64,000 nt of DNA from Halovivax cerinus (GTDB lineage Archaea > Halobacteriota > Halobacteria > Halobacteriales > Natrialbaceae). Positions within the stretch are counted from its first letter, which is position 1. Every line of letters starts with the position of its first letter. Shown one piece after another: positions 5,610 through 61,203 of this stretch. The stretch covers positions 1,426,001-1,490,000 of the forward strand of contig NZ_CP101824.1 of the NCBI RefSeq assembly GCF_024498195.1. Direction: 5' to 3'. The position numbers and the translations under genes are program-made. Under the pieces are notes generated by a model, which saw nothing but the letters and a program-made list of their open reading frames with translations, ran no database searches and had not been told where the DNA came from.

Positions 5610-7529
5610 TCATCCAACACACCGGTTGTGTTTTTGATAAATATTGTAACTTTCTCCATTCTTATAAACCATGTTTACATCACAACCAAATGAAACCTGA
5701 GGTACTTTTCCAAATACTGTGAACCGGGCATTTGTTGTTTTGAGTTGGTACAGAGCATTTCCAGAGTAGAGATATGGCCTTTCGATAACTAGCTGACTCC
5801 CACTTTGCAATTGTACCTTGTTCCTCGAGTGGTTAATAGTCAACATTGAGGAATTCGGATTATCGTAGTATCGGCGGATGATCGTTGATGCACGGCCATC
5901 GGCGATTATCGACGAATCATCTCCATAAGCGTCGACAAACTCGTACATCGCGTACTCGTTATCGTTGGCGGCGTAGCGTTGAGCCGAATGCGCATCATCT
6001 GCGATCGGTCCGTCGACCGCGCCTATAAATCCGACTGCCATGATGGCAAACCAGACGCCACAGAATAAGATCAAGGCTGGTAGTGCGACGCGGCCAATGA
6101 TGTCTTCTGTGAAAACTTCGCGAAGCCCGATCGCAGCAAACGGTGCGAGGGCAAATGAAATGAACTGAAACCATCTCATTGGGAAAAAGAAGTCTATATT
6201 GAATAGTGGACCACCGAAGGCAAATAGATAAAGAATCCCGATGAGGGCCGTGAACTGGACTCCAAATTGGTCCCACCGATGTCCGAGGTGCCGAATAACA
6301 CCGACAGCTGCTAATCCGAATAACACTGCTGAGCCAACAACGTGAATAGGGGTCAATCCACCCGCGACGGAGGTAGCGACGTTAAGACCTTCGGGAAGCG
6401 TTTCTCCCCCTCCTCCTCCTGAAGAGCGGAACCCGATTTGGGACAGCAGCGGTATCAGTTGCATTACCAGGCTTGACACGACATCCGGAGCGTCACCTTC
6501 CGGGCCGCTGTACCGGGTTATCCGCCAGAATTGAACGAGACTTACGCCAAGAATCATGAGGTACCCAATTATATGGAAGCGCCGTTCACGGTGATAGTCT
6601 GCTGCCAGGATTGCAACTAAAGCCATGAGTGTGATCCACCCCGTAGACTGGTGCGTTAATAGGACCATCAAATAACAAATCAATGCAACTCCGAGCATAC
6701 GTTTTGAATCTGTTACTAAAAACCGGTGGGTTCCGTAAACCGCGAGAGTGAAGAACACCATTCCAATAGTTGTTGTGCTTTGGAACACGCTCCAACCCAG
6801 TGTAAAATCGGCTGTGATATAGAGTAATCCACCGAGACTCCCGAGCATCGGTGCTCCGTACGTCCGTTGAATTAGAGCGAATATGACCAGGGGGGGAACA
6901 ACAGTATACAAAAAAGTGACAGATAGAAAGAAAATCTCCTGTACATCTAACCCTGTGACGTGTGCGACCGATGCTAGTATTTCGTGGTACGCTGGCGCAT
7001 AATAGTACTTCGACGTAGCAAATACTTGATCGAGTGCTCCAGTGGTGATCAATTCTTGTGTATGCCGGAAGTGATAGTGGCCGTCACTCCCAAACGGATA
7101 CGGGCTGGAGAAGTGGATCGTTGCTCGATGGAGAAGGCCGCTTATTAGAGCGAAACTGATACCGAGAAGAGGTTTTCTAGATAAGATTACGAATAGCGAT
7201 ATGCAGTATAGTACAATAGTAAGCCCTATCACCCAAACCGATCGAGTGAACCCTCCTAGGCGATATACAAGTGTCAGGGTTCCTACCCCGAATAGAAACC
7301 CTAGCATGGACAATCGCCAATCGAATGGGGTGGCAGGCAGTTTCTGTATCCAATTTCTATTTGCAGTAAATACTGAGAATATTCCTCCACTAAGAGCCGC
7401 CAAGGGATATATCTTAGCGAATGGATTAGATATGAAAACCGACAGCATTAAACCAAGGATGCCCGCAGAAATAGATACCATTGCGAGGGATTTGTGACGG
7501 TTTGTGTTGAACCTCGTCCAGAGTCTCAT
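5610..7529 (-). CDS. Polytopic membrane protein, GT-C glycosyltransferase-like
   Basis: A 639-residue protein with about a dozen hydrophobic segments across residues 15-500 and a soluble C-terminal part of roughly 130 residues. An acidic motif, FGSDGHYHFRHT, lies in the first large loop after a run of helices. This is where GT-C enzymes (polyprenyl-phosphate-sugar-dependent transferases) carry their catalytic DxD/ExD-type residues. I infer a membrane glycosyltransferase acting on the outer face with a lipid-linked sugar. It resembles the 586-residue protein at 35.9-37.7 kb in size, topology and loop position. A flippase or polymerase role is the alternative. Confidence 0.62.
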   Translation of the reverse strand: MRLWTRFNTNRHKSLAMVSISAGILGLMLSVFISNPFAKIYPLAALSGGIFSVFTANRNWIQKLPATPFDWRLSMLGFLFGVGTLTLVYRLGGFTRSVWVIGLTIVLYCISLFVILSRKPLLGISFALISGLLHRATIHFSSPYPFGSDGHYHFRHTQELITTGALDQVFATSKYYYAPAYHEILASVAHVTGLDVQEIFFLSVTFLYTVVPPLVIFALIQRTYGAPMLGSLGGLLYITADFTLGWSVFQSTTTIGMVFFTLAVYGTHRFLVTDSKRMLGVALICYLMVLLTHQSTGWITLMALVAILAADYHRERRFHIIGYLMILGVSLVQFWRITRYSGPEGDAPDVVSSLVMQLIPLLSQIGFRSSGGGGGETLPEGLNVATSVAGGLTPIHVVGSAVLFGLAAVGVIRHLGHRWDQFGVQFTALIGILYLFAFGGPLFNIDFFFPMRWFQFISFALAPFAAIGLREVFTEDIIGRVALPALILFCGVWFAIMAVGFIGAVDGPIADDAHSAQRYAANDNEYAMYEFVDAYGDDSSIIADGRASTIIRRYYDNPNSSMLTINHSRNKVQLQSGSQLVIERPYLYSGNALYQLKTTNARFTVFGKVPQVSFGCDVNMVYKNGESYNIYQKHNRCVG

Positions 7530-7722: not shown

Positions 7723-8757
7723 TTAACTAAAAAAAGCACACACTTCGGCGGCTCGATCTTCCCAGGTGTTACGTTTGGCAGTTTCAATGGAATTTTTGGA
7801 AATCGTGTTAACTTTACCCAAATCATGCATCAGTGACATGACTCCCTCGGCCAACTCAACTGGATCGTCTCTACAAATGACTCCACAGCCGTTATTCTCG
7901 ACAAATCTTGCGATCGTCTTACATTTAGTTGAGACGACCGGTAGCCCAAAAGACATATATTCGAACAATTTTACCGGCATGGCCATATTGTTGTAATATG
8001 TGTCTCTAAAAGGTATGATACCTATATCACTTTTATTATATATTGGTTCTAGCCCTTCGCCCGACTCATGATAAACGTAAATTGGGAGACTTTCGATGGC
8101 GTTACTTGTTTTGTCATTTAATCTTTCATATTCTCCTTCCCTACAGACCAGGTGCAGAACAATATCATTATTTTCTAACTCCCTCATCATACCAACTAGG
8201 TTATGTATCCCATATCTCTCCGAAATACCACCAACGTATATTATATCGCTCACTTCCTCTCGTTCTATTGGATTCTGTTTATTACAGCCAGGCCATAATA
8301 CGTCTCGAGTCGCAGCTTTTAACGACAGCTCTAATGAATATTCACTCGGAAAATAGACTATATCGGCTAGTTTTGTGTATAGGTCGACTTCAGCAAAATG
8401 TGCCGCTCTAAATACGTATTTCTTAACTCCATCCTTAGAGAAATGGTCTGCGAATTTCCAATATGTGTCTCGATAAAAAACTGCTAGGGGTACGTCGTGT
8501 TTCCGAATCTTGTAGAGAAATGGATAATCATACAATGGATGAATCGGGGAGGAGGGAGGTTCTGAATAGCAAAAATCATATTTGTCCCATTCCATACTCT
8601 CTCCAAATACTTTTCTTAACCTATTCTTGCCCCTTCCTTGAATTATGTCAACATCGTGGCCTAGCCCCTTCAACGATCGAAACATCTCATAGGGTCTCTT
8701 TCCTGACCCCTTCTTGACGTTAAACGATTCACGGGGAGAATGATACAATATTTTCAT
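7723..8757 (-). CDS. Glycosyltransferase family 4 protein
   Basis: A 344-residue GT-B protein. The N-terminus MKILYHSPRESFN is followed by a Lys/Gly-rich acceptor loop (GSGKRPYEMF). The second lobe carries IIYVGGISERYGI and the donor-site stretch PVKLFEYMSFGLPVVST, where the conserved Glu contacts the nucleotide sugar in GT4 enzymes. It is a predicted cytoplasmic glycosyltransferase. The gene and its flanks are AT-rich with many A/T-ending codons, as in the other AT-rich glycosyltransferase at 4.7-5.6 kb. It stands alone on the minus strand with an AT-rich 5' flank, consistent with its own promoter. Confidence 0.87.
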   Translation of the reverse strand: MKILYHSPRESFNVKKGSGKRPYEMFRSLKGLGHDVDIIQGRGKNRLRKVFGESMEWDKYDFCYSEPPSSPIHPLYDYPFLYKIRKHDVPLAVFYRDTYWKFADHFSKDGVKKYVFRAAHFAEVDLYTKLADIVYFPSEYSLELSLKAATRDVLWPGCNKQNPIEREEVSDIIYVGGISERYGIHNLVGMMRELENNDIVLHLVCREGEYERLNDKTSNAIESLPIYVYHESGEGLEPIYNKSDIGIIPFRDTYYNNMAMPVKLFEYMSFGLPVVSTKCKTIARFVENNGCGVICRDDPVELAEGVMSLMHDLGKVNTISKNSIETAKRNTWEDRAAEVCAFFS

Positions 8758-9182
8758 CCCTCCTCAATTTGTGATCCCTCTCTATTAAGCGTCTCCATCT
8801 TTTCACCGGAATTCAGATTCTATTCACGAATCACTAAGAATTTTAGGAAATATATTCCATTTGACTATATATTACTTTATATGTATACATTTATCGAGGG
8901 GATAGATCCTATCACTATCAATTTCCCCGTTTCGAACACGAACTATTCCCTTATTCGATCGAAGTTGGGGCACATGTGTGGGGAATGCGATTCTAGATCG
9001 GTCAAATTATACGTCTGAATGGATTCCGAGTTATCTACCTTCTCTCCGGGGACTGAATTCGGCTCTGTTTAGACGTCCGAACCGCGACGGAGGAACCGCC
9101 ACTAGTAAGTCGTAGGGTTCTAGCAAGAGATGCTACTTTTCGAATGTAGCAGGGAGTGAAGCGGGACGGTTCGGTTGTGCAA
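8758..9182. other. AT-rich intergenic stretch and left flank of an IS relic
   Basis: No supported gene. The left part is AT-rich and should hold the promoter of the minus-strand glycosyltransferase. From about 9050 the composition shifts, and the sequence probably belongs to the 5' end of the decayed IS5-type element that follows. No clean terminal inverted repeat could be paired by eye. Confidence 0.4.
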
Positions 9183-19612: not shown

Positions 19613-20177
19613 GTCGAAGACTGATCAGACGAAAGTCTTCGAGTGAGAACTATAACCTCGTCGGTACGTGGTTCAACGCTTCAAAGCTTAGAGATGGACG
19701 CTCAATGGGAGCCCTGGTTAGAACACTCCTGTCATCCAATATATTTTAGATGAAGTGGCCAAGCCGAATGGTGGTTGCCAAATAATGACCGTGTATATTT
19801 AAAGACCTCCCCGCAGACTCTTTATTGGAAGTGCTTGCAACGTATGGAAAGTCGAAGACTTTTCGAATGGTCGTTACACGATGGTCTTGGCAAGTCGAAG
19901 CGATCGAAACCGGTCTTACCGACCAGTGCCCGATTGACCGGGCAGCCTTAACACATATATCGTCTATGGGGGTTTGACCTGGTAGTAGTATCTCGTTTTG
20001 AACCCACTGAATCCGCTCGTTTACAAATAATAGAACCGACACTCCGGTGATCGAACGAACCTGTACCGACCTGCCGAACGATCTGGATTAGACAAACGAT
20101 ATCTGCCCGCTCACCTAATTCTTATCCTAAAACAAATCACCAGTAGATATAATACACTGCCCTTCGTTGACACGCGT
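19613..20177. other. Intergenic region, no gene supported
   Basis: About 560 bp between the exporter and the first structured leader. It contains AT-rich patches (for example tatatttaaag near 19795 and acatatatcg near 19955) that could be promoter elements, and short open frames without recognisable content on either strand. Confidence 0.4.
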
Positions 20178-20282
20178 GGAAGCCACGCTCACCGGTTCGC
20201 CGGCTGGGTAGAATTGCCCCGGGTGCTTGGGACACCCGGAGCGTGGCTTCCGATCCCCAGGACAGGGGATTCTACGAAAGCC
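20178..20282 (+). promoter_or_regulatory. Structured leader of the A1-B1 zinc-ribbon genes
   Basis: Directly upstream of the A1 start, the + strand can fold into an outer 12-bp perfect stem (20178-20189 with 20240-20251) enclosing two hairpins: CCGG-TTCG-CCGG at 20192-20203, and a 7-bp stem CCGGGTG/CACCCGG (20219-20225 with 20233-20239). A third 6-bp hairpin (20253-20258 with 20265-20270) lies just before the GAAAGCC-ATG start. The same order of elements precedes gene A' at 57.3 kb with a different primary sequence in the outer stem, so base-pairing is maintained. A cis-acting RNA or an end of a mobile element are the two main readings. Confidence 0.6.
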
Positions 20283-20630
20283 ATGAATCACTACACACCC
20301 AACACGGATAAACGCCACGCACAGCCCGCCTACCGCCTGCGTACGCCCACTGACCAGTCTAGCACCCCACTACACCTCCGGACCGATCTTCTCCCACGTG
20401 TCGCCTGCGCGGACGACGACGATGCGGAGTATCTCGTCCTCGATCCCGCGCCGCCATCAAAGTACTCGGCCAAACCGGGCCACCGTCCGGTCGACTATCC
20501 GCCGTGTCCCCACTGCGGCGAGCCGGTGATCACGGTCTGGATGTTCGGCCCGGACATGCACACCGCGGATCCCTGCCAGTGCGCGCTGACCCGCGAGGAA
20601 GTCGTGGCCCTCGGCGGTGATGAGCTGTGA
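20283..20630 (+). CDS. Small zinc-ribbon protein A1 (CPxCG type)
   Basis: A 115-residue protein. The N-terminal 70 residues are low-complexity. The C-terminal domain has PPCPHCGEPV, then DPCQCAL 17 residues later, a CxxC...CxC zinc-ribbon pattern, and ends in REEVVALGGDEL. Haloarchaea are known to encode many small CPxCG-related zinc-finger proteins of mostly unknown function. The ATG at 20283 directly follows the structured leader, while an upstream GTG or ATG would cut into it. Its stop overlaps the GTG of gene B1 as GTGA. The second copy at 26.8 kb is about 90 percent alike by eye but lacks a start codon. The function is unknown. Confidence 0.7.
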   Translation: MNHYTPNTDKRHAQPAYRLRTPTDQSSTPLHLRTDLLPRVACADDDDAEYLVLDPAPPSKYSAKPGHRPVDYPPCPHCGEPVITVWMFGPDMHTADPCQCALTREEVVALGGDEL

Positions 20631-21027: not shown

Positions 21028-21468
21028 TCACGGCGGATTGGAGCGGCTGTTCAACCGGGACGGATCGCCGGCGTCGTAGGCCGCTCGCCACAGCGCGTGG
21101 ACGGCCCGTGCGACCAGCGATACCTCTGTCACTTCGATACAGGAGGGTTCGGCGATCGAACCGTCCGGCGGATGGAAGTGAATTTCGGGCGAGTGTGCGT
21201 TCGGGTGGCGGTCGAATCGCCAGTTGACGTCCCGGTTATCGACGTAGTGAAACGAGTACATGTCGAGTTCGCTCCACTGCACGTCGAGGCGGGCCGCGTC
21301 GGCGCGTCCGATCCCGTCGGTGAGGTGAATCTCGAGTTCGGTCGGCGCGATCTGATCGTCGAAGGCCGTCGAGTCGACCAGCGGTTCGAGATCGATCCAG
21401 AGCGTTCGAACGCGCTGGAGGGCGGGCAGGTAGATCGGGCCGAACGCCCCGGTTCGGTCGTCGCTCAT
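21028..21468 (-). CDS. TumE-like toxin family protein
   Basis: A 146-residue protein with the pattern YSFHYVDNRDVNWRFDRHPN followed by HFHPPDG, resembling the TumE (DUF6516-type) toxin family. Four such proteins occur in this window. Its ATG overlaps the stop of the upstream DUF7342-type HTH gene as ATGA on the minus strand, the usual arrangement of a two-gene toxin-antitoxin operon with the antitoxin first. The biochemical activity of TumE relatives is not established from this sequence. A longer frame exists upstream but the overlap fixes the start at 21468. Confidence 0.62.
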   Translation of the reverse strand: MSDDRTGAFGPIYLPALQRVRTLWIDLEPLVDSTAFDDQIAPTELEIHLTDGIGRADAARLDVQWSELDMYSFHYVDNRDVNWRFDRHPNAHSPEIHFHPPDGSIAEPSCIEVTEVSLVARAVHALWRAAYDAGDPSRLNSRSNPP

Positions 21469-21980
21469 GCGGTGAGCTGGTGACTGGCTTCGTCGTACGC
21501 GAGGGCCGCCTGGGCGACCGCGAGGTTCGTCCGCGTCGTCTTCCACGCGCTTATGTCGTCCCATCCCTCAGTCTCGTCGGCGTCGAGTTTCCGTGCGAGC
21601 GCTTCGGGGGTCACGACGTCGTAGCGATCCTGGTAGCGACGAATGTCCCGCTTCATCCGTTCGATGCCGTCGAGAATGTCGTCCCGGGTGGTTTCCTCCC
21701 GGAGCTCGCGGATGCGGGCGTCGAGTACGCGGTCGCTGTTTCGTTTGTACAGCGTCGTCCGGCCGTCTGCGTCGGCCTCGGCGAAACCGGTGGTGACGAG
21801 AGTCTTGCAGTGTCGTCGGGCCGTCGGCTCGCTGACGAGCGCTCGCTCGGCGATGCGGGCCGCCGATTGCCCGTCGTGGGTCCCCTCGACGATCGCGTAC
21901 ACTCGTTCGAACGGGGACGTCTCCGCCTTCCACTCCGCTTTCACGTGCTCGTTGACGTCGTCCCACCTGCTGGTGGTCAT
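21465..21980 (-). CDS. DUF7342-type winged-helix protein, predicted antitoxin
   Basis: A 171-residue protein. A winged HTH spans roughly residues 25-75 (ERVYAIVEGTHDGQSAARIAERALVSEPTARRHCKTL), followed by a helical region with RELREETTRDDILDGIERMK and YDVVTPEALARKL. Haloarchaeal proteins of this type (annotated DUF7342) commonly precede TumE-like genes. The start ATG at 21980 gives MTTSRWDDVNEHVK. An AT-rich segment (ataaatagtttctctgaaa) just upstream at 22003-22022 fits a promoter. It probably represses its own operon and neutralises the downstream protein. Confidence 0.7.
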   Translation of the reverse strand: MTTSRWDDVNEHVKAEWKAETSPFERVYAIVEGTHDGQSAARIAERALVSEPTARRHCKTLVTTGFAEADADGRTTLYKRNSDRVLDARIRELREETTRDDILDGIERMKRDIRRYQDRYDVVTPEALARKLDADETEGWDDISAWKTTRTNLAVAQAALAYDEASHQLTA

Positions 21981-22065
21981 AGCGTCGTCTACGCACTCGG
22001 TGAATAAATAGTTTCTCTGAAAAACTATACTTTTCCGGGGTGGTGTCGGTCCCGAATAGCACTCT

Positions 22066-22560
22066 CCAGGCGATGCGGTAGTGACCGAGCGACCCCTCAG
22101 ATAGCACTCACCACCGCCCACGTTCGATCGAGTTCGCCTCGAACTGTCCACCCTCGATCGCCGTCGTGCGAGCCACCACGATCGTCCCGCCGACGCCGTC
22201 CCGTGATCGACGCTCGCGGCCGTCCGACGAATCGGCGGCGTCCCACCGGTGTGTCGCCACTGACGATCGCGTCGGCGAGTCGGCTGTCGCGTCGAGTATC
22301 CGAAACCGATAGTTTCGGGTGGCGCCACGACGCGGCCGTCGATCGCGTCAGTCCGCACCCGGGTGATCGAATCGAACGCGACTCACTCGGTCGCGAGTTC
22401 GTCGTAGATCTCCGCGTGTTCGTCCAGGTCGTGCCGGCCGAGGAACCGGATGCGGTAGCGCCGCGTCCTCGGGGGAGAGATCGTCGGGAATCTGTTGCTG
22501 GTCGCGCTCTGCTGCCATACTCACTCCTCGCTACGGGCGTCACGATCACAATCGTTCGGT
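22066..22560 (+). repeat. Junction repeat copy 2 within a 0.5-kb duplicated block
   Basis: The block starts with the very end of gene B (ccaggcgatgcggtagtgacc) and its tail (to about 22173), then continues for about 370 bp that is nearly identical to 32.74-33.11 kb. Differences are scattered single bases plus a few-base insertion near 32815. The duplicate ends inside the 3' part of the minus-strand gene 22521-22808, whose last codons (ending RDARSEE) are also carried over to the second copy. Confidence 0.75.
22383..22518 (-). pseudogene. Mini-gene remnant, frameshifted, copy 1
   Basis: From ATG 22518 the frame reads MAAERDQQQIPDDLSPEDAA. The continuation RYRIRFLGRHDLDEHAEIYDELATE ending at a TGA lies one frame over. 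The interval is 136 bases, one more than 45 codons, so a single extra base separates the halves. It starts 3 bp after the stop of the upstream gene, as in a two-gene operon. The same 136-base interval with the same frameshift is found in the second copy. An antitoxin-sized product is possible but unproven. Confidence 0.4.
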
Positions 22561-22808
22561 TCGTCGTCCGTCGTCTCGTGTGGTCGAGGACCGGACTGTC
22601 GATCCGACCCGTCGATGCGTGACAGCCAGAGATCGATCGTCGCTTCGTACTCAGGTGCCAGCGGTGCGGTATGTGTTCGGAAGTACGCGGTCACCGAATC
22701 GGCCTCGACGCCCGTTTCGTCCGTCGCGAGCGCTTTCAGTATGTCCTTCACCGTCCGGTCGTAGTCGAAGGAGTACCCGTTCATGGCGTAGAAGATTCGA
22801 ACGGACAT
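22521..22808 (-). CDS. Small protein of unknown function in a TA-like operon
   Basis: A 95-residue frame with a compact N-terminal part (MSVRIFYAMNGYSFDYDRTVKDILKAL...) and a hydrophilic acidic tail ending RDARSEE. I do not recognise the family. The frame extends upstream to 22895 through low-complexity residues, so the start is uncertain. It is followed by the frameshifted mini-gene, and its 3' end coincides with the boundary of the 0.5-kb duplication. It could be a truncated toxin. Confidence 0.4.
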   Translation of the reverse strand: MSVRIFYAMNGYSFDYDRTVKDILKALATDETGVEADSVTAYFRTHTAPLAPEYEATIDLWLSRIDGSDRQSGPRPHETTDDEPNDCDRDARSEE

Positions 22809-24252: not shown

Positions 24253-24463
24253 ACCCGACGAACTCTCTCCCCGCTGTGACCGCCCGGTGACGAGCAACAC
24301 TCCGACGGGCCCGCACACGCACGTCGCGAGTCCCTGCGGCTGCCGACTCTCGCTCGCCGAGGTCCGGGGGATGCGGTAGCGACCGACAGATCCACGAACG
24401 AACTCGCCAACGCTCACGCTCGATCCCCGTCGAACCAGCCACTCCCGATCGCCGTCGTGCGAG
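24253..24463 (+). repeat. Junction repeat copy 3: decayed B gene end plus tail
   Basis: The match to gene B starts at acccgacgaactc. The first zinc knuckle is lost because the stretch encoding CPRC is shortened to ctgtgaccg, but the second half SPCGCRLSLAEV and the stop region ggatgcggtagcgacc remain. The tail (24380-24463) is nearly identical to that of copy 5. This is the longest of the decayed B fragments and shows that the fragments derive from a full gene. Confidence 0.75.
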
Positions 24464-24553
24464 CGCGTGTTCGCTACCGTCGATACACGGTGAGACGTCG
24501 CAGGGGACGCACGGTGAGATACACCTTTGTGGCGCCGCGCTAGAGTGACAGGT

Positions 24554-25706: not shown

Positions 25707-25838
25707 TCGTCGGTCCTGCGGCTGCCGACTCACGCTCGCGGCGGTCCAGGGGATGCGGTAGCGACCGAGCGATCCCTCAGATAGAATCCGCACCACCCTC
25801 GATCGTCACACCCGATCGACCACCTCCCTGTCGAGCGC
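25707..25838 (+). repeat. Junction repeat copy 4 (short, diverged)
   Basis: The match begins at cctgcggctgccgactcacg and runs through the B stop region ggatgcggtagcgaccgag. The tail beyond 25780 is diverged and lacks the gtcgtgcgagc end. The flanking spacer (25444-25706 and 25839-25894) carries no gene. The promoter of the AbrB/PIN operon should lie at its right end, where ggttatgtatgttcg occurs near 25854. Confidence 0.65.
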
Positions 25839-26628: not shown

Positions 26629-26705
26629 AGAGCACCTCGGCGAGGGCGAGGACGGCGTCCCGCCAGAAGCCCGCGAGCCGTGACTCCTCGGCGGCGGTTC
26701 GCTGG

Positions 26706-26783
26706 CTGTGAAGCAACCCCTCCGGGTGTGACGAGTACCCGGAGTGTGGCGTCCGATCCCGTAAGAGGATGCGACTGAAAGCC
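26706..26783 (+). promoter_or_regulatory. Decayed structured leader before A2
   Basis: Corresponds to the leader at 20.18-20.28 kb. The CCGGGT/ACCCGG inner stem (26722-26727 with 26737-26742) and the GAAAGCC just before the start position survive. The 12-bp outer stem is lost, and the last hairpin is reduced to atccc...ggat. The decay coincides with the loss of the A2 start codon. Confidence 0.5.
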
Positions 26784-27132
26784 ACGATCCGCGTATAGAG
26801 TCACCACGGATACACGCCACGCACAGCCGGCCTACCGCTCACAAACGGATGCTCACGAGTCTAGCACCCCACTACACCTCCGGACCGATCTTCTCCCGCG
26901 CGTCGCCTGCGCGGACGACGACGATGCGGAGTATCTCGTCCTCGATCCAGCGCCGCCATCGACGTACGCGGCCAAACCGGGCCACCGCCCGATCGACTAT
27001 CCGCCGTGTCCCCACTGCGGCGAGCCGGTGATCACGGTCTGGATGTTCGGCCCGGACATGCACACCGCGGATCCCTGCCAGTGCGCGCTGACCCGTGAGG
27101 AAGTCGTGCGCCTCGGAGTTGATGAGCTGTGA
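26784..27132 (+). pseudogene. Zinc-ribbon gene A2, start codon lost
   Basis: From RHAQPAYRSQTDAHESS onward the copy is nearly the same as A1, including PPCPHCGEPV and DPCQCAL. At the position of the A1 ATG there is ACG (26784), and a frame change follows within the next 12 bases. No in-frame ATG or GTG occurs before the zinc ribbon itself. The 3' end still overlaps the GTG of B2 as GTGA. It is probably untranslated unless a non-standard start is used. Confidence 0.65.
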
Positions 27133-27377
27133 GGAGAGACGAGCCCGATCCCGTCGACGCCCCCGACCCGGAGAACGCGCCCGACCCCGTCGACGCCCCG
27201 GACGCGCCCGACCCCGTCGACGCCCCGGACGCGCCCGACCCCGCGGACGCTCCCTTCCCGCTGTGTCCGCACTGCGACCGCCCGGTCACCCGCTACACCT
27301 CCACGGGCCCGCACACGCACGTCGCGAGTCCATGCGGCTGTCGACTCACGCTCGCCGAGGTCCAGGGGATGCGGTAG
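27129..27377 (+). CDS. Small zinc-ribbon protein B2 (CPxC type)
   Basis: An 82-residue protein starting at GTG 27129. The first half is a run of Asp-Pro-rich hexads (DPVDAPDAP-like units encoded by imperfect 18-27 bp direct repeats). The second half is the zinc ribbon PLCPHCDRPV...SPCGCRLTLAEVQGMR. It has the same fold pattern as A1, so A and B look like tandem paralogues. This is the intact version of B in the island, and its 3' end recurs as the junction sequence. The function is unknown. Confidence 0.65.
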   Translation: MRRDEPDPVDAPDPENAPDPVDAPDAPDPVDAPDAPDPADAPFPLCPHCDRPVTRYTSTGPHTHVASPCGCRLTLAEVQGMR

Positions 27378-27464
27378 CGACCGACAGATCCACGAACGAA
27401 CTCGCCATCGCTCACGCTCGATCCCCGTCGAACCAGCCACCCTCGATCGCCGTCGTGCGAGCGC
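27300..27464 (+). repeat. Junction repeat copy 5 (end of B2 plus tail)
   Basis: The last 78 bp of B2 with the stop region ggatgcggtagcgacc and the 87-bp tail ending in gatcgccgtcgtgcgagc. The tail differs from copy 3 by only a few bases. Confidence 0.75.
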
Positions 27465-29445: not shown

Positions 29446-29618
29446 TCCACGGGCCCGCACACGCACGTCGCGAGTCCCTCCGGCTGTCGACTCACGCTCG
29501 CGGCGGTCCAGGGGATGCGGTAGCGACCGACAGATCCCACGAACGAACTCGCCACGCCGCCCACGCTCGATCGAGTTCGTTCTCGATCCGTCCGCCCTCG
29601 ATCGCCGCCGTGCGAGCG
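29446..29618 (+). repeat. Junction repeat copy 6
   Basis: Starts at ccacgggcccgcacacgcac inside the second half of gene B, passes the stop region ggatgcggtagcgaccgac, and ends with gatcgccgccgtgcgagc. The B portion encodes SPSGCRLTLAAVQGMR with the first Cys of the CxC pair changed to Ser, so it no longer encodes a zinc site. Confidence 0.75.
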
Positions 29619-29836
29619 GGGCACTCCCGCTGCGCGCTCGTCTCCTGTCAGCCCGCCGGTCGTTCGTTCGAAGTCGACTCGGATCGGGCGAATACCGAGC
29701 ACAGTTTCCGTCTCCGACCGTTCCACATCGACGCGCTCGACTGGTCGACGCGGTCGGGTTCCCGGCTCTCGGTGTGCCAGCCGACGGTGGCGCCGACGAA
29801 CGTGTATAGGCTATCGCGACCAACTGTCGACCGTAC

Positions 29837-30136: not shown

Positions 30137-30150
30137 AACACGTTCCGAGC
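30137..30150 (+). repeat. Left 14-bp direct repeat flanking the VapBC insertion
   Basis: aacacgttccgagc, within the DUF5615 gene, identical to 30992-31005. Confidence 0.75.
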
Positions 30151-30991: not shown

Positions 30992-31005
30992 AACACGTTC
31001 CGAGC
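30992..31005 (+). repeat. Right 14-bp direct repeat flanking the VapBC insertion
   Basis: aacacgttccgagc, identical to 30137-30150. The reading frame of the DUF5615 gene is in the same phase across both copies. Confidence 0.75.
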
Positions 31006-31522
31006 GTTTTCGTCACGGCTCTCCGATCGAACGGGTACGTCGTCGTGACGGCCAATTCGGTGTTCGGAGAAGGGACCGACGATCGTCGGCTGCTCGAGTA
31101 CTGTGGCGAGGCAGGTCACGTGTTCGTCACGCACGACAAGACGGACGTCGGCGGCGCGGTCGGCGATAGCGTCGACCACGCGGGGATCGTCATCTACACC
31201 GATCCGGTGTTTCCGCGCGCGGATCCGAACGGGGCGGTTCGGTCCATCGAACGGATCCTCGAACACTAGTCACCGACCGACCTCGCCGGCGAGCGTGTCT
31301 GGCTCGATCAGTGGCGCCGTACCGCGGACGAGAGCGTACGGGAACGGACGTCCGTTCTCGTCGACGGCCGACCCACTGTCCGATCCCGATACCCTCGACC
31401 CGCGCCGCCAACAGAATCGGTCCGAGAGAACCTGGTCGAGCAGTCGGCCTCCCCGTCGTGACCGAACTGTGTCGACACCATCGTCGCGTGTGGACCTGCA
31501 GTTCGGATCACCACGTCGCGAG

Positions 31523-31660
31523 TCCCTGCGGCTGTCGACGCACGCTCGCGGCGGTCCAGGCGATGCGGTAGCGACCCTACCGTCCACTGAACGAGACACT
31601 TCCCTCCACTCTCGATCCGATACCCGTCGAACCACCCTCGATCGCCGTCGTGCGAGCGCG
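31523..31660 (+). repeat. Junction repeat copy 7
   Basis: Starts at cacgtcgcgagtccctgcgg, encodes SPCGCRRTLAAVQAMR up to the stop, and continues through a tail (ccgtccactgaacgagacac) shared almost exactly with copy 1, ending in gatcgccgtcgtgcgagc. The spacers on both sides (31270-31522 and 31661-31843) hold no supported gene. Confidence 0.75.
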
Positions 31661-32546: not shown

Positions 32547-33115
32547 CGACGGGCCCGCACACCCACGTCGCGAGTCCCTCCGGCTGTCGACTCACCCTCG
32601 TTGAGGTCCAACGGATGCGGTAGCATCGCCAAGCGATCGCTCCGATAGCACTCGCCACCCCGCCACTTCGATCGAGTTCGCCTCGAACCGTCCACCCTCG
32701 ATCGCCGTCGTGCGAGCACGTCGACAGCTCCTCCCGGGAACGGTGTCCGCGATCGACGCTCGCGGTCGTTTGACGAATCGGCGGCGTCCCACCGGATCGC
32801 ACCGGTGTGTCGCCACTGACGAGCGCGTCGGCGAGTCGGCTGTCGCGTCGAGTATCCGAAACCGATAGCTTCGGGTGGCGCCACGACGCGGCCGCCGATC
32901 GCGTCAGTCCGCGCCCGGGTGATCGAATCGAACGCGACTCACTCGGTCGCGAGTTCGTCGTAGATCTCCGCGTGTTCGTCCAGGTCGTGCCGGCCGAGGA
33001 ACCGGATGCGGTAGCGCCGCATCCTCGGGGGAGAGATCGTCGGGAATCTGTTGCTGGTCGCGCTCGGCTGCCATACTCACTCCTCGCTACGGGCGTCACG
33101 ATCGTACTCGTTCGG
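32547..33115 (+). repeat. Junction repeat copy 8 within the second 0.5-kb duplicated block
   Basis: The B-derived part begins at acgggcccgcacacccacg and passes the stop region ggatgcggtagc, with a tail to about 32718 ending gatcgccgtcgtgcgagc. From about 32744 the sequence is nearly identical to 22.19-22.54 kb, including the frameshifted mini-gene and the last 14 codons of the neighbouring gene (ending RDARSEE). On this copy that gene is otherwise absent, and a TumE-like gene ends instead at 33139. Confidence 0.75.
32939..33074 (-). pseudogene. Mini-gene remnant, frameshifted, copy 2
   Basis: The same 136-base arrangement as at 22383-22518: MAAERDQQQIPDDLSPEDAA in one frame and RYRIRFLGRHDLDEHAEIYDELATE in the next. 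In this copy an internal ATG (from gaggatgcgg) could start a 27-residue MRRYRIRFLG peptide. The shared frameshift means it predates the duplication, or that the short downstream frame is the real gene. Confidence 0.4.
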
Positions 33116-33138
33116 TTCGTCGACCCTCGAGTCGTGCG

Positions 33139-56987: not shown

Positions 56988-57302
56988 CGATAGTGAACAT
57001 ACTCTATCGAAGGAACAAAGGAATTCTGCATCGCACAGTTTATTCTAGCGTTCTATGAAGGGCAAATCTGACGATACTGAAGGATATCTCGCCTACTGAT
57101 CTAGATTTCTGAAGAGCGCCCAGGACCAAGCCGAACGTCGCGTGGCATTCCGTCGGTGCGGGCCCTGTCCACAAACTAAGCCGTAGAACGGTAGCGGGTG
57201 TACTATCTAAGTACTTTCACCAACTCGTTCTAAATTCGTAAAATACTCTCTCCAATCCGATAATTAGCGATAGCTATAAGATAAAACCGATCGAAGGCCG
57301 TG
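56988..57302. other. Intergenic, AT-rich
   Basis: No supported gene. It contains AT-rich segments (for example ttcgtaaaatactctc near 57234 and agctataagataaaacc near 57272) suitable as promoters for the protease (minus) and for the structured leader (plus). Confidence 0.45.
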
Positions 57303-57406
57303 TTGGAAGCACCCGTCTCTCTCCGTCGTCAGGGGCAGCGCCGAGAATGCCCCGGGTGAGGTAGCACCCGAGACGATGCTTCCAACCCATAGATGGGAGT
57401 GAAAGC
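57303..57406 (+). promoter_or_regulatory. Structured leader of the A'-B' genes
   Basis: Folds like the leader at 20.18 kb. The outer stem TTGGAAGC/GCTTCCAA (57303-57310 with 57378-57385) is extended after a small bulge by CGTCTC/GAGACG (57314-57319 with 57370-57375). The inner stem is CGGGTG/CACCCG (57353-57358 with 57365-57370), and a final hairpin CCCAT-AG-ATGGG (57386-57397) lies just before GAAAGC-ATG. The inner-stem and start-proximal sequences are conserved, and the lower stem differs but still pairs. Confidence 0.6.
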
Positions 57407-57688
57407 ATGACCGACTACAGTACACACCACCATAAGCATCCCGACAGCGAAACGCTCGACTCGGGCCATCTCGGCCCGTTTTTCGACAGAATTAGCGCCG
57501 AGTCCGAACCGGCGAACCCGGCGACCGACCCGGCAACGCGTCCGGGGCCACCGTCGTCACGGACGCCCCGTCCGGCGCCACGGACGCCTCGAACGGGGCC
57601 GACCATCCGTCCAGGACCGACCGACCACTCCGACGACCAGGATCCCGATCCGCCGGGAGCGGCCGCCCTGGCCGAGGTGGCGGTGTGA
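57407..57688 (+). CDS. Gene A', small Pro-rich protein in A-B module position
   Basis: A 93-residue frame whose ATG directly follows the structured leader. The N-terminus MTDYSTHHHKHPDSETLDSGHLGPFF is His- and Asp-rich. The rest is Pro/Thr/Arg-rich low complexity ending ALAEVAV. Unlike A1 it has no Cys residues, so the zinc ribbon is absent. Its stop overlaps the GTG of B' (GTGTGA), as A overlaps B in the other module. The function is unknown, and coding capacity in the second half may be fortuitous. Confidence 0.5.
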   Translation: MTDYSTHHHKHPDSETLDSGHLGPFFDRISAESEPANPATDPATRPGPPSSRTPRPAPRTPRTGPTIRPGPTDHSDDQDPDPPGAAALAEVAV

Positions 57689-57954
57689 CGCCCGCGGGCG
57701 GTGCGAACGGATCCGACGTGGGCGAACCTGACGCTGTTGAATCCGACGACGCCGACGCGAACGCGACCGAATCAGACGACGGCGACGACGTCCCGGCGTG
57801 GAAGGCGTACGGCTACCCCCGAAAACCCGAGTGGGCGCCCGACTGCCCGCGGTGTGGCGGCCCCATCCTCGGGGTGACGGTCGCCGGCCCGGGCGTCAGT
57901 CAGGTCACACCGTGTGGCTGTCGCGTCCCGCCCTCGGTGATCGAGATCCTGTAG
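57685..57954 (+). CDS. Small zinc-ribbon protein B' (CPxCG type)
   Basis: An 89-residue protein from GTG 57685. It has an acidic N-terminal half (VESDDADANATESDDGDD), then PEWAPDCPRCGGPILGVTVAGPGVSQVTPCGCRVPPSVIEIL with the CxxC...CxC ribbon. It is a diverged counterpart of B1 and B2. Its 3' end recurs at 59.85-59.93 and 61.00-61.07 kb as junction sequence. The function is unknown. Confidence 0.65.
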   Translation: MTPAGGANGSDVGEPDAVESDDADANATESDDGDDVPAWKAYGYPRKPEWAPDCPRCGGPILGVTVAGPGVSQVTPCGCRVPPSVIEIL

Positions 57955-58217
57955 GCGACGCGAGGGGATTCGATCGGGTCGTGAGTTGGCGGTCGGTGTG
58001 GTTGATGAGAGAGTGGACGAAAATGAACCCCTCACGGCCCCCGGTAGAAAGCCCTTGGTCCTTTCAGTCCCCCGGGGTTGTTTGATCGTATGCCCTCTGG
58101 TTGCAGCGTCTAGAAGCTAGTGGGTACTGTCTCGTGGTCAACCATAGGACACGTAAGCGCTGTATCCGTCGGGAATTGAATTCAATTATTATTTAACGAT
58201 GAACGTGTATATGTACC

Positions 58218-58445
58218 ATGTCAGAAATTACTCTCGATATAGCGTGCGGTCGGTGCGCTTCTCTGTGGCTCGCGGTGGAGATGTTACCCGTACGACGTTG
58301 GCACGGCGGATTGGTAGGGGCCGGTGTTGTCGCCACAACAGACGGGTACGTTCGTGATATCGTCCGCAAGATACGTGGCGGGCTGCAGTACGAAAGTCGC
58401 GTAGACAGTAGAGCGGTCGATGCAGTCCCCGTCCGGTGTGGGTGA
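58218..58445 (+). CDS. Possible small protein of unknown function
   Basis: A 75-residue frame starting MSEITLDIACGRCASLW. The start lies about 25 bp after an AT-rich ttcaattattatttaacg (58180-58197), a good archaeal promoter position for a leaderless transcript. The stop is 7 bp before the DUF7718-type gene, so an operon is plausible. The protein has no recognisable motif, and a frameshifted antitoxin gene is an alternative reading. Confidence 0.4.
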   Translation: MSEITLDIACGRCASLWLAVEMLPVRRWHGGLVGAGVVATTDGYVRDIVRKIRGGLQYESRVDSRAVDAVPVRCG

Positions 58446-58452
58446 GATGCGG

Positions 58453-58830
58453 ATGAGCGAAGGCCCCAGAGACTACGACCGAGTGTTCACGACGCCACTG
58501 GAGTTCCGCGTTCGGCGTCGAATCGGCTATAGCCACGATCACGGGATAGTGACCCGATTCGTGGTGCAACTTGAGTACAGATTGGGCGGGAGCTGGGCGG
58601 AAGTCGTCCGATTCGACCACGATCCGGCAGGCGAACAGGGTCACGACGTGACCGTTGAGGGTGTCCACATGGACGTCTACCGAGATGGAGAGAAAGTACG
58701 GTCGCCGGAAATCTTCCCACCGATGCCAGCGAACGATGCGCTCACGAGCGCCGAAGAACACTTGACCCAGCACGGCGAACGGTACGTAAAGAGGTTCGAG
58801 GAATGGCACGACATCAGACGGAACCCATGA
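58453..58830 (+). CDS. DUF7718-type haloarchaeal protein
   Basis: A 125-residue protein: DYDRVFTTPLEFRVRRRIGYSHDHGIVTRFVVQLEYRLGGSWAEVVRFDHDP, then VTVEGVHMDVYRDGEKV and LTQHGERYVKRFEEWHDI. This is the pattern of a haloarchaeal family (DUF7718) with a beta-sheet core resembling the TumE-like proteins (FDHDP, Y.D). It overlaps the following 45-residue gene by 4 bp, like a toxin-antitoxin pair with reversed order. The activity is unknown. Confidence 0.62.
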   Translation: MSEGPRDYDRVFTTPLEFRVRRRIGYSHDHGIVTRFVVQLEYRLGGSWAEVVRFDHDPAGEQGHDVTVEGVHMDVYRDGEKVRSPEIFPPMPANDALTSAEEHLTQHGERYVKRFEEWHDIRRNP

Positions 58831-58964
58831 CTGACGAAGAACTCGACGAATTCCGGGACGCGATGGAGGAACAGGGAGAGACACTCCGCAAAGCGCTCGC
58901 AGAAGACCTCGGTGGGGACGCTGACAACTACCGAACGCGCCCGATTGCCGACGGCGGCGAGTGA
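58827..58964 (+). CDS. Small partner of the DUF7718-type protein
   Basis: A 45-residue protein: MTDEELDEFRDAMEEQGETL and ending IADGGE. It is acidic and helical, coupled by ATGA to the gene before it. Size, charge and coupling suggest an antitoxin or accessory subunit. Confidence 0.6.
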   Translation: MTDEELDEFRDAMEEQGETLRKALAEDLGGDADNYRTRPIADGGE

Positions 58965-59097
58965 TTCTGCATCTCTTTCCGGTTCGATACTGGTGCCGAC
59001 AGATGCGATCCATTTGAACGGCTGCGGGACGACTTCGCTACTCCGGTCGCAGTCACGTTCTCGTCCCTTCAAAATCGAGTGCGGTGTCCCCGTTGGA

Positions 59098-59724
59098 CTA
59101 CTCGGTCTGGGTCTCGGGGTTCGAGACGTCGATCTCGTTCCGGCAGTCGATCTCGTCGGCGATGTCGGGAAACATCGCGTCGAAGTGCGGGTCGGACGTC
59201 TGGCCAGCCGCGAGGACCGGTTCGAGCGCGAGTACGATCCGGATCGCCTCACCGGTCGGAACGCCGAGCGGTTCGGCTGCCGTCCGTTGCGTGATTCGCC
59301 CCGCGTAGTGGCGTCCGGCCTCCCGGACGGCGGCGGCGAGTTTCCCGACGCCGTGACGCTCGACGAAGTACGCGATATCGTCGTCGATCTCCTGGCGGGC
59401 GACCGCGTGCAGAATCGTCGGCGTGATCGTGCTCCCGTCCGCGTCGATCCGAACCGGACTCGCGGTGACGTCGACCGGTCGATCACCGTCGAGGTCGACG
59501 ACACCCAGTGATTCGAGCGTCTCGACGTGATCGTACACCGTGGTCTTCGGAATCGAGAGCGCATCCTCGATCTGCGGTCTGGTGACCGGCCCGAAGTAGC
59601 ACACGTAGACGTAGACGCGGGCCAATTCCGGCTGTTCGAGTAGCCGACCGACGGTCGCGAGCTGGTTAATCTCGGTTTCGATATCCCCCGGTGGGATCGT
59701 CGCTGCGGGGGCGGGACCCATCAC
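59098..59724 (-). CDS. Winged-helix transcriptional regulator
   Basis: A 208-residue protein. The HTH lies in residues 25-80: TVGRLLEQPELARVYVYVCYFGPVTRPQIEDALSIPKTTVYDHVETLESLGVV. The remainder (PVRIDADGSTITPTILHAVARQEIDDDIAYFVERHG and on) is a haloarchaeal-specific domain of the type annotated DUF7437. No adjacent partner is on its strand. It may act alone or be the remnant of a TA-like pair. The start ATG is at 59724, with an alternative at 59721. Confidence 0.72.
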   Translation of the reverse strand: MMGPAPAATIPPGDIETEINQLATVGRLLEQPELARVYVYVCYFGPVTRPQIEDALSIPKTTVYDHVETLESLGVVDLDGDRPVDVTASPVRIDADGSTITPTILHAVARQEIDDDIAYFVERHGVGKLAAAVREAGRHYAGRITQRTAAEPLGVPTGEAIRIVLALEPVLAAGQTSDPHFDAMFPDIADEIDCRNEIDVSNPETQTE

Positions 59725-59849
59725 CGGCTAGTTCGAATTCCTCGAACTTCAATCTTGCTCCGTCGCCACGCCACGACGCTGAACCGAGTCGGTCGTCGAA
59801 CGACTCGAACCGTGGGGTTCGGCCGCGAACCAGGGACCCACATCTCGCG

Positions 59850-59929
59850 TCACGATCACCGGACCGGGCGTCAGTCAGGTCACGCCGTGTGGCTGTCGCG
59901 TTCCGCCGTCGTCGATCGAGATCCTGTAA
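59850..59929 (+). repeat. B' junction repeat, second copy
   Basis: gtcacgatcaccggaccggg through the B' stop, encoding GVSQVTPCGCRVPPSSIEIL. The sequence before it is unrelated to B', so only the 3' third of the gene is present. Confidence 0.72.
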
Positions 59930-60028
59930 GCGGTCAGAGCGGCGGCTTCCATACGGTCGTTCTTCGACCTACGGCAGATCACCGTCAGTCTTCGTGCACC
60001 GAACGCGCTCTCGGGAACGAACGGCTGT

Positions 60029-60472
60029 TCACAGCGCACCCGTTTCGTCGAGATACGCCTTGATGTCGTACAGAAAGTCCCGATATCGTTCGAGATCGCA
60101 CAGCGCGTCGTAGACGTCGTCGTGATCGATGGATCGGCCGTACGTGTGCGCGAGAACGTTGCGAAAGCGCGCCGCCTGGGCCATCTCTGCCGTCTCACAC
60201 CGATCGAAGACCTCGATTGCGCCCAGATCGATCATGGCTGCCGGGTTACTCTCCGGTCTGCGTCCACTCTCGTTGACAACGATCGTTCTGGCGATGTCGA
60301 GCGTGGCCTCGGTCAGTTTGACGAACCGACGCTCGACGACGTCCTGTGTCTCCGTCTCGGTGAGATACCGCTCTCGCGGAATCGCCTGTTTCTCCGCCAA
60401 GATCGCGAGACTCTCCTCGATAGTTTCGACCGCGGTGACGATCCGTTCGACGTCGTCGTCGGCGAACGTCAT
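60029..60472 (-). CDS. hepT: HEPN-domain ribonuclease toxin (HepT-like)
   Basis: A 147-residue helical protein with FRNVLAHTYGRSID, the R-x4-H HEPN motif followed by Tyr, and EATLDIARTIVVNESG upstream, as in the pair at 24.6-25.4 kb. It is the second gene of a minus-strand operon, overlapping the MntA stop by 4 bp. Predicted RNase controlled by AMPylation. Confidence 0.85.
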   Translation of the reverse strand: MTFADDDVERIVTAVETIEESLAILAEKQAIPRERYLTETETQDVVERRFVKLTEATLDIARTIVVNESGRRPESNPAAMIDLGAIEVFDRCETAEMAQAARFRNVLAHTYGRSIDHDDVYDALCDLERYRDFLYDIKAYLDETGAL

Positions 60473-60894
60473 GCCAGGTGTTCGTCGACAGCTGCGAGCG
60501 CCTCGTCGAAACGTTCCGCGGGAGATCGTGGATCGGTATCGTCGGTACGCAGTCCGTCTCGCAGTCGATCGGCATCCGATTTGCTTCCGACGAGCCGCAC
60601 GCCGTTCGAGAAGACGGATCGGCGGACAGACGGCGCCGCGGACCGGATATCGACGACGTCGACGTCGTCGGTTCCGAACGCGACCGCTAGGTCGACACCG
60701 AGAGCGAGGAGTCGATCCGCGTGACCGGAATCACCCGGGTGGCAGTCCTCTAACGCGACGGCCACGTCGACGTCGCTCCGTGCGTCGGCCTCGCCCCGGG
60801 CGTGCGAGCCGAAGAGGTACCCGACGGTCACCGGATGCGCGGCGAGTACGGAACTGACCGTCTCGTCTATCGGACGTCTGTCGGCGTCGGTCAT
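60469..60894 (-). CDS. mntA: MNT-type nucleotidyltransferase antitoxin
   Basis: A 141-residue minimal nucleotidyltransferase with VGYLFGSHARGEADARSDVDVAVAL (GS...SDxD) and VDVVDI. The start at ATG 60894 (MTDADRRPIDETV) is preferred to the longer frame. It is upstream of and coupled to the HEPN gene. AT-rich sequence just upstream (gatgataaatccg, 60917-60929) fits its promoter. Confidence 0.85.
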   Translation of the reverse strand: MTDADRRPIDETVSSVLAAHPVTVGYLFGSHARGEADARSDVDVAVALEDCHPGDSGHADRLLALGVDLAVAFGTDDVDVVDIRSAAPSVRRSVFSNGVRLVGSKSDADRLRDGLRTDDTDPRSPAERFDEALAAVDEHLA

Positions 60895-61003
60895 CGGCCG
60901 AGAAAACGCGGTGAGGGATGATAAATCCGCGGTCGAATCGTGCCGGAGAGCGACGACCAATGGTCCGTACGCGGACGGACGCCCGTTCGAGTACGCGTCG
61001 TTC

Positions 61004-61067
61004 CGGCGTCAGCCAGATCACGCCGTGTGGCTGTCGCGTCCCACCCTCGGCCATCGAGCTCCTGTAG
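61004..61067 (+). repeat. B' junction repeat, third copy
   Basis: cggcgtcagccagatcacgc through the stop, encoding GVSQITPCGCRVPPSAIELL. After the stop, gatacgaggcgttcgatc resembles the sequence after the B' stop at 57.95 kb, so part of the tail is also conserved. Confidence 0.72.
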
Positions 61068-61203
61068 CGATACGAGGCGTTCGATCCGGGTCCCAAATGG
61101 CCTCGTTCCGGACGGCGACGACCGATCGGAACCGATCGTCGTGTCGAATCAACAGACATATTCATACCAAAACTATTTCGTCCGTTCATCCCTGGGTGGT
61201 GGC

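Follow-up and report, generated by a model that had tools for sequence, protein, structure and literature searches.

A locus of Halovivax cerinus bears on how toxin-antitoxin (TA) operons enter chromosomes and why they accumulate at particular places. The window, that is, the whole 64,000-nucleotide stretch of contig NZ_CP101824.1 that was analysed (positions 1,426,001 to 1,490,000; coordinates below count from its first letter), contains at 57-61 kb a leader and a zinc-ribbon module (A'-B'), followed by TA and regulatory genes that alternate with copies of the 3' end of B'. The original prediction, based on the sequence alone, regarded this as a second, diverged array with the same logic as array 1 (20.2-34.5 kb), and proposed that the A-B module itself is tied to the accumulation of cassettes. 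Array 2 is composed of the following features:

57275..57279, + strand: TATA box of the leader promoter (from sequence; spacing alike in relatives)
57304..57385, + strand: structured leader RNA, three-way junction (covariance model match 84.6 bits, E 4e-19, the sequence itself being in the seed; covariation)
57407..57688, + strand: A' ORF, 93 aa (N-terminal half; in relatives the gene is one undivided ORF)
57685..57954, + strand: B' ORF, 89 aa, CPxC...PCGC zinc ribbon (ORF and Pfam/NCBIfam scan)
58420..58830, + strand: cassette 1, DUF7718 protein (Pfam PF24839, E 6e-29)
58827..58964, + strand: cassette 1, 45-aa partner of the DUF7718 gene (pair also on a Halorussus plasmid)
59098..59721, - strand: cassette 1, regulator with TrmB-type HTH and DUF7437 (Pfam)
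59849..59932, + strand: B' 3'-end copy 1, -80 to +3 around the B' stop (84 nt, 88%, E 1e-26)
60029..60472, - strand: cassette 2, HepT toxin (NCBIfam HepT_toxin, over cut-off)
60469..60894, - strand: cassette 2, MntA antitoxin (NCBIfam MntA_antitoxin, over cut-off)
61005..61092, + strand: B' 3'-end copy 2, -62 to +26 around the B' stop (90 nt, 86%, E 3e-22)

The 3' end of B' does recur on the + strand at about 59.85 and 61.00 kb, as had been noticed, and the alignment of B' with both fragments, which had been proposed as a check, provided the breakpoints given above. Elsewhere in the 3.9 Mb genome a DNA search revealed no further match of note, so the recurrence of the B' 3' end at these two sites is not a matter of chance. 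The right edge is no fixed junction, lying at +3 and +26 in array 2 and at about +90 in array 1. Placement on the + strand throughout is correct for the B' fragments but not for the cassettes, which occur in both orientations in all large arrays. The expected content of the intervals, a DUF7718 pair with an HTH regulator and an MntA/HepT pair, agreed with the Pfam and NCBIfam assignments. At 60029-60894 a HEPN toxin adjoins an MNT antitoxin, with both NCBIfam equivalog models over cut-off, as in type VII TA systems; compared with HepT/MntA this pair is ordinary and shows nothing unusual. The B' protein itself had no family match in Pfam or NCBIfam. A' and B' together form one ORF of 114-147 aa in 8/8 Halovivax homologues, so the A'/B' pair in array 2 is a split gene. 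The two ORFs overlap by four bases at 57685-57688, where a frameshift, a programmed shift or a true split are all conceivable. A search for a syntenic relative of the locus via the downstream histidine kinase led only to a 48% paralogue with different neighbours.

The leader at the head of the array, about 25 nt downstream of its TATA box, folds into P1 and two hairpins. The covariance model, built from nine sequences (57304-57385 and homologues), also matches ahead of array 1, which bears out the claim of a shared fold. Matches were found in 74 of the 125 genomes of the family and at about 35 places in this genome. Among 75 matches, pairing reached 95% and 13 of the 23 pairs were changed on both sides, figures that lean upward because the alignment was fitted to the model and some antisense matches were included. 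No match was obtained in Rfam 15 at the gathering threshold or at E up to 5; the leader is an uncatalogued structured RNA. As in cis-regulatory (riboswitch-like) RNAs, the conserved and covarying fold lies directly upstream of the start codon. The mean run between the 3' strand of P1 and the start-codon region was 6.7, compared with 6.1 in swapped partners (0/500; kinship is ignored in this comparison), which suggests a putative translational switch through alternative start-codon pairing.

The genes that follow the leader are short ORFs or zinc-ribbon genes with the N-terminus in common. Dispersed leaders (57304-57385, 20177-20253 and the roughly 35 places in this genome, G000) stand ahead of short ORFs (e.g., MIAYTPPRQKGLARS...) or of CPxC...PCGC zinc-ribbon genes. 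At two loci (L095 and L098) a weaker match lies ahead of a longer gene; the two proteins, of 158 and 197 aa, have a zinc-binding motif of the SWIM-like form CxC...CxH, recognized by eye, and these loci suggest that the leader RNA family may be wider than the zinc-ribbon modules. Tyrosine recombinase genes lie a few kb from leader or module copies at about 2763-2775 kb in a second Halovivax genome (G001) and at about 72-76 and 2523-2527 kb in this genome; this closeness possibly exceeds chance.

Array 1 provides a longer example of the same layout:

20177..20253, + strand: leader RNA (covariance model match 30.3 bits)
20283..20630, + strand: A zinc-ribbon gene
22065..22173, + strand: B 3'-end copy, -16 to +90
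24268..24470, + strand: B 3'-end copy, -111 to +95
25715..25766, + strand: B 3'-end copy, -46 to +5
26695..27463, + strand: nearly whole second module, -708 to +91
29446..29619, + strand: B 3'-end copy, -77 to +92
31511..31658, + strand: B 3'-end copy, -60 to +91
32549..32717, + strand: B 3'-end copy, -74 to +90

The first module is followed by eight repeats of the B end or tail, one of them consisting of the tail only. Their left edges range from -16 to -708, and their right edges fall at +89 to +92 in six of the eight, at +95 in one and at +5 in one. The motif GTGCGAG stands at the right edge of 7/8 copies, where 0.03 would be expected in a stretch of this length, and also in several copies of G001. 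The segments 22072-22580 and 32614-33136 form a 90% identical block, comprising the B tail and a truncated Doc-type TA remnant, which is evidence of copying within the array. A DUF433-DUF5615 pair is split in array 1 by a PIN/RHH insert, which is flanked by a 14-bp direct repeat (AACACGTTCCGAGC, 30137-30150 and 30992-31005); the pair is contiguous in another genus (G020). The two arrays had been taken as independent of each other. Both are real, follow the same logic and arose separately, but their leaders and zinc-ribbon modules are homologous, so they are not fully independent.

The same architecture was found in relatives, at three loci of G001 (L029, with single fragments in L183 and L154), at one locus of a third Halovivax genome (G004, L122/L143) and at L030 of G020. 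Throughout the 70 loci with B-like genes, every fragment shared the strand of the intact B (83 redundant hits, 0 on the minus strand), and almost all hits lay downstream of B, the few upstream ones involving internal modules. Similarity to B falls with distance from B in the G020 array (four points), and this distance-dependent loss was absent in the G001 array.

Of the 49 proteins encoded in the intervals, many gave matches to PIN, MNT/Polbeta, HepT, DUF433, UPF0175, DUF3368, MazE, DUF5615 or HTH families. A PIN pair is common to G000, G001 and G004 and MntA/HepT to G000 and G004, the order being opposite, and the DUF433-DUF5615 pair is common to this genome and G020. TA pairs of array 1 are also present on Halobaculum, Haloferax and Halobacterium plasmids, and the DUF7718 gene and its 45-aa partner on a Halorussus plasmid. 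Cassettes are thus shared across arrays in different order and several have plasmid homologues, so genes have been gained and shuffled, as had been proposed, and have not merely decayed in place. The same evidence contradicts decay without gene gain, which does not apply to array 1 and for array 2 is improbable. The TA loci at 21028-21980 and 22379-22808, which flank one B fragment, adjoin in the same order on two haloarchaeal plasmids, on which no B sequence was detected. On haloarchaeal plasmids L186 (1896-4207) and L187 (1036-4146), three array-1 TA loci stand close together and no B was detected.

A single gain event can be seen at a sister locus, where the one clean pair of occupied and empty sites was found; none was found at the array-2 site. 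The B' orthologues in G002 (L023) and in H. asiaticus JCM 14624 (L025) are syntenic, with 86-94% identity on both sides, and behind the G002 orthologue lies 1.1 kb of additional DNA that holds a PIN/RHH pair. Both sides of this insert carry a 72-bp stretch (7937-8008 and 9079-9150) that H. asiaticus has only once at the corresponding position (L025, reverse complement 5655-5726). The comparison shows that a toxin-antitoxin pair was inserted in G002 with a 72-bp target duplication. The duplicated stretch is the 3' end of a convergent neighbour gene, which remains intact. This PIN/RHH pair recurs (83% over 843 nt) among the cassettes of the G004 array, where a B 3' copy follows it. Because this pair stands beside a B 3' copy in G004 and beside the 3' end of a different gene in G002, the duplicated 3' end belongs, as read from the alignments of this one case, to the target rather than to the cassette.

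The reading that we favour, to which we give slightly better than an even chance, is that of a hotspot: TA operons would have been inserted successively directly 3' of the zinc-ribbon gene, each with a long target duplication. Each insertion would duplicate about 50-200 bp of the target, and occasionally the whole module of about 800 bp; the gene would stay complete, and a second, displaced copy of its 3' end would come to lie beyond the new cassette. Repair of a staggered or broken site may capture TA DNA and so give the long direct duplication. Selection for an intact gene would leave only duplications that reach or pass the stop codon, which would account for the variable left edges, the right edges at or after the stop, the exclusive occurrence of direct repeats and the downstream position. 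Later exchange between repeats would copy and reorder the cassettes, which may be retained through TA addiction. The cassettes of array 2 would have entered in the same way as the G002 pair. Several points weigh against this model. The clean comparison of occupied and empty sites is a single one, the common right edge near +90 in array 1 is unpredicted by random cutting, a few copies in G001 and G004 end just before the stop codon, and the adjacency of the two TA loci on plasmids may mean that a B 3' copy was placed between genes that were already adjacent. No responsible recombinase was identified.

In the converse explanation, 5'-truncated leader-A-B copies invaded a TA island that already existed and were eroded from the left; template switching, segmental duplication or a retro-like process would have produced them. 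The continuum of left truncations with a common right edge, the nearly whole modules inside arrays, the adjoining plasmid loci and the wide dispersal of leader-A-B modules at many places all agree with it. In G001 the alignment of the dispersed copies starts at the promoter and goes no further than the B stop. The explanation is nevertheless rather unlikely, given that the copies all have one orientation and occur only near their own intact B, and that what was gained between the empty and the occupied site was a TA pair and not a B fragment. It was also considered that the fragments are kept as an RNA or DNA signal, such as a terminator or insulator, beside which the cassettes would be incidental. 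The last 15-20 codons with the stop are indeed the part of B most often retained, but the fragments have no more structure than shuffled sequence and several are badly decayed or reduced to 16 nt of B; this explanation is very improbable.

Site-specific integration has a classical signature, in which the gene is restored intact on one side and a piece of its 3' end is displaced to the other; the B 3' end might accordingly serve as an attachment site for circular TA cassettes, inserted by an integrase that acts in trans. This signature, the reordering of shared cassettes and the GTGCGAG motif at the right edges favour such a system. It remains unlikely in view of the same TA pair being flanked elsewhere by the 3' end of a different gene, of the lack of a tyrosine recombinase within or near the arrays of the window, and of the lack of an attC-like fold on either strand. 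The nearest PF00589 match in the genome lies at 1,729 kb (window at 1,426-1,490 kb), no integrase was found among the interval genes, and 16 fragments gave mean folding z scores of -0.6 and -0.1 on the two strands, similar to control windows. Tandem integrative elements sit at gene 3' ends, using tRNA or protein-gene att sites. The present arrays are like them in having an intact gene with displaced same-strand 3' fragments downstream, and unlike them in their cassettes of about 1-2 kb without integrase, their variable left edges and the lack of a single fixed core. Chromosomal integron cassette arrays, including archaeal ones, have been described (Ghaly et al., 2022, PMC9668308). Tandem small TA-rich cassettes between repeats, shared among arrays in different order, are common to both, whereas here there is no IntI nearby and no folded attC, cassettes have both orientations, the repeat is the coding 3' end of the target, and a recombination site borne by the cassette, as in integrons, was not found in the one case available. 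An integron was ruled out by the lack of a nearby integrase, the lack of an attC fold and the mixed cassette orientation. Archaeal TA and defence islands, e.g., the dark-matter islands (PMC4158269), likewise hold TA gene clusters related to plasmid genes, but in the present arrays copies of the 3' end of a single host gene recur between the TA genes, and a leader-RNA zinc-ribbon module stands ahead of each cluster as its anchor. In the literature searched, outside of which subscription papers lay, no description of cassette arrays or structured leaders in haloarchaea was found.

It can further be asked whether the module takes an active part, as a dedicated gene-capture device of haloarchaea in which the leader RNA and/or the zinc-ribbon proteins join TA operons to the DNA behind the module. 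The tie between the A-B module and cassette accumulation is only partly supported: the arrays are real and replicated, but a module that itself drives accumulation is not supported; most modules stand without an array and the same type of insertion used the 3' end of another gene. In the survey of B-like genes (70 loci, 81 modules), fragments lay behind only about 7 or 8 of the roughly 80 module copies examined, and TA families were weakly enriched behind array-less modules (11/101 genes downstream versus 2/87 upstream, p 0.02). B appears to be a site where insertion is favoured or tolerated and not the machinery itself, since the 3' end of another gene was duplicated at a syntenic B' site together with the TA pair that is also present in the G004 B array. 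A capture device is quite improbable; if it were true, it would be an integron-like array without integrase or attC, with a previously undescribed class of regulatory RNA at its head.

For the biology of these archaea, the arrays constitute a record of TA operon entry, in which each displaced 3' end would mark one insertion and the length of the target duplication can be read from empty and occupied sites compared side by side. The array is headed, moreover, by a member of a large family of structured leader RNAs, uncatalogued and associated with zinc-ribbon microproteins, which is testable as regulatory RNA.
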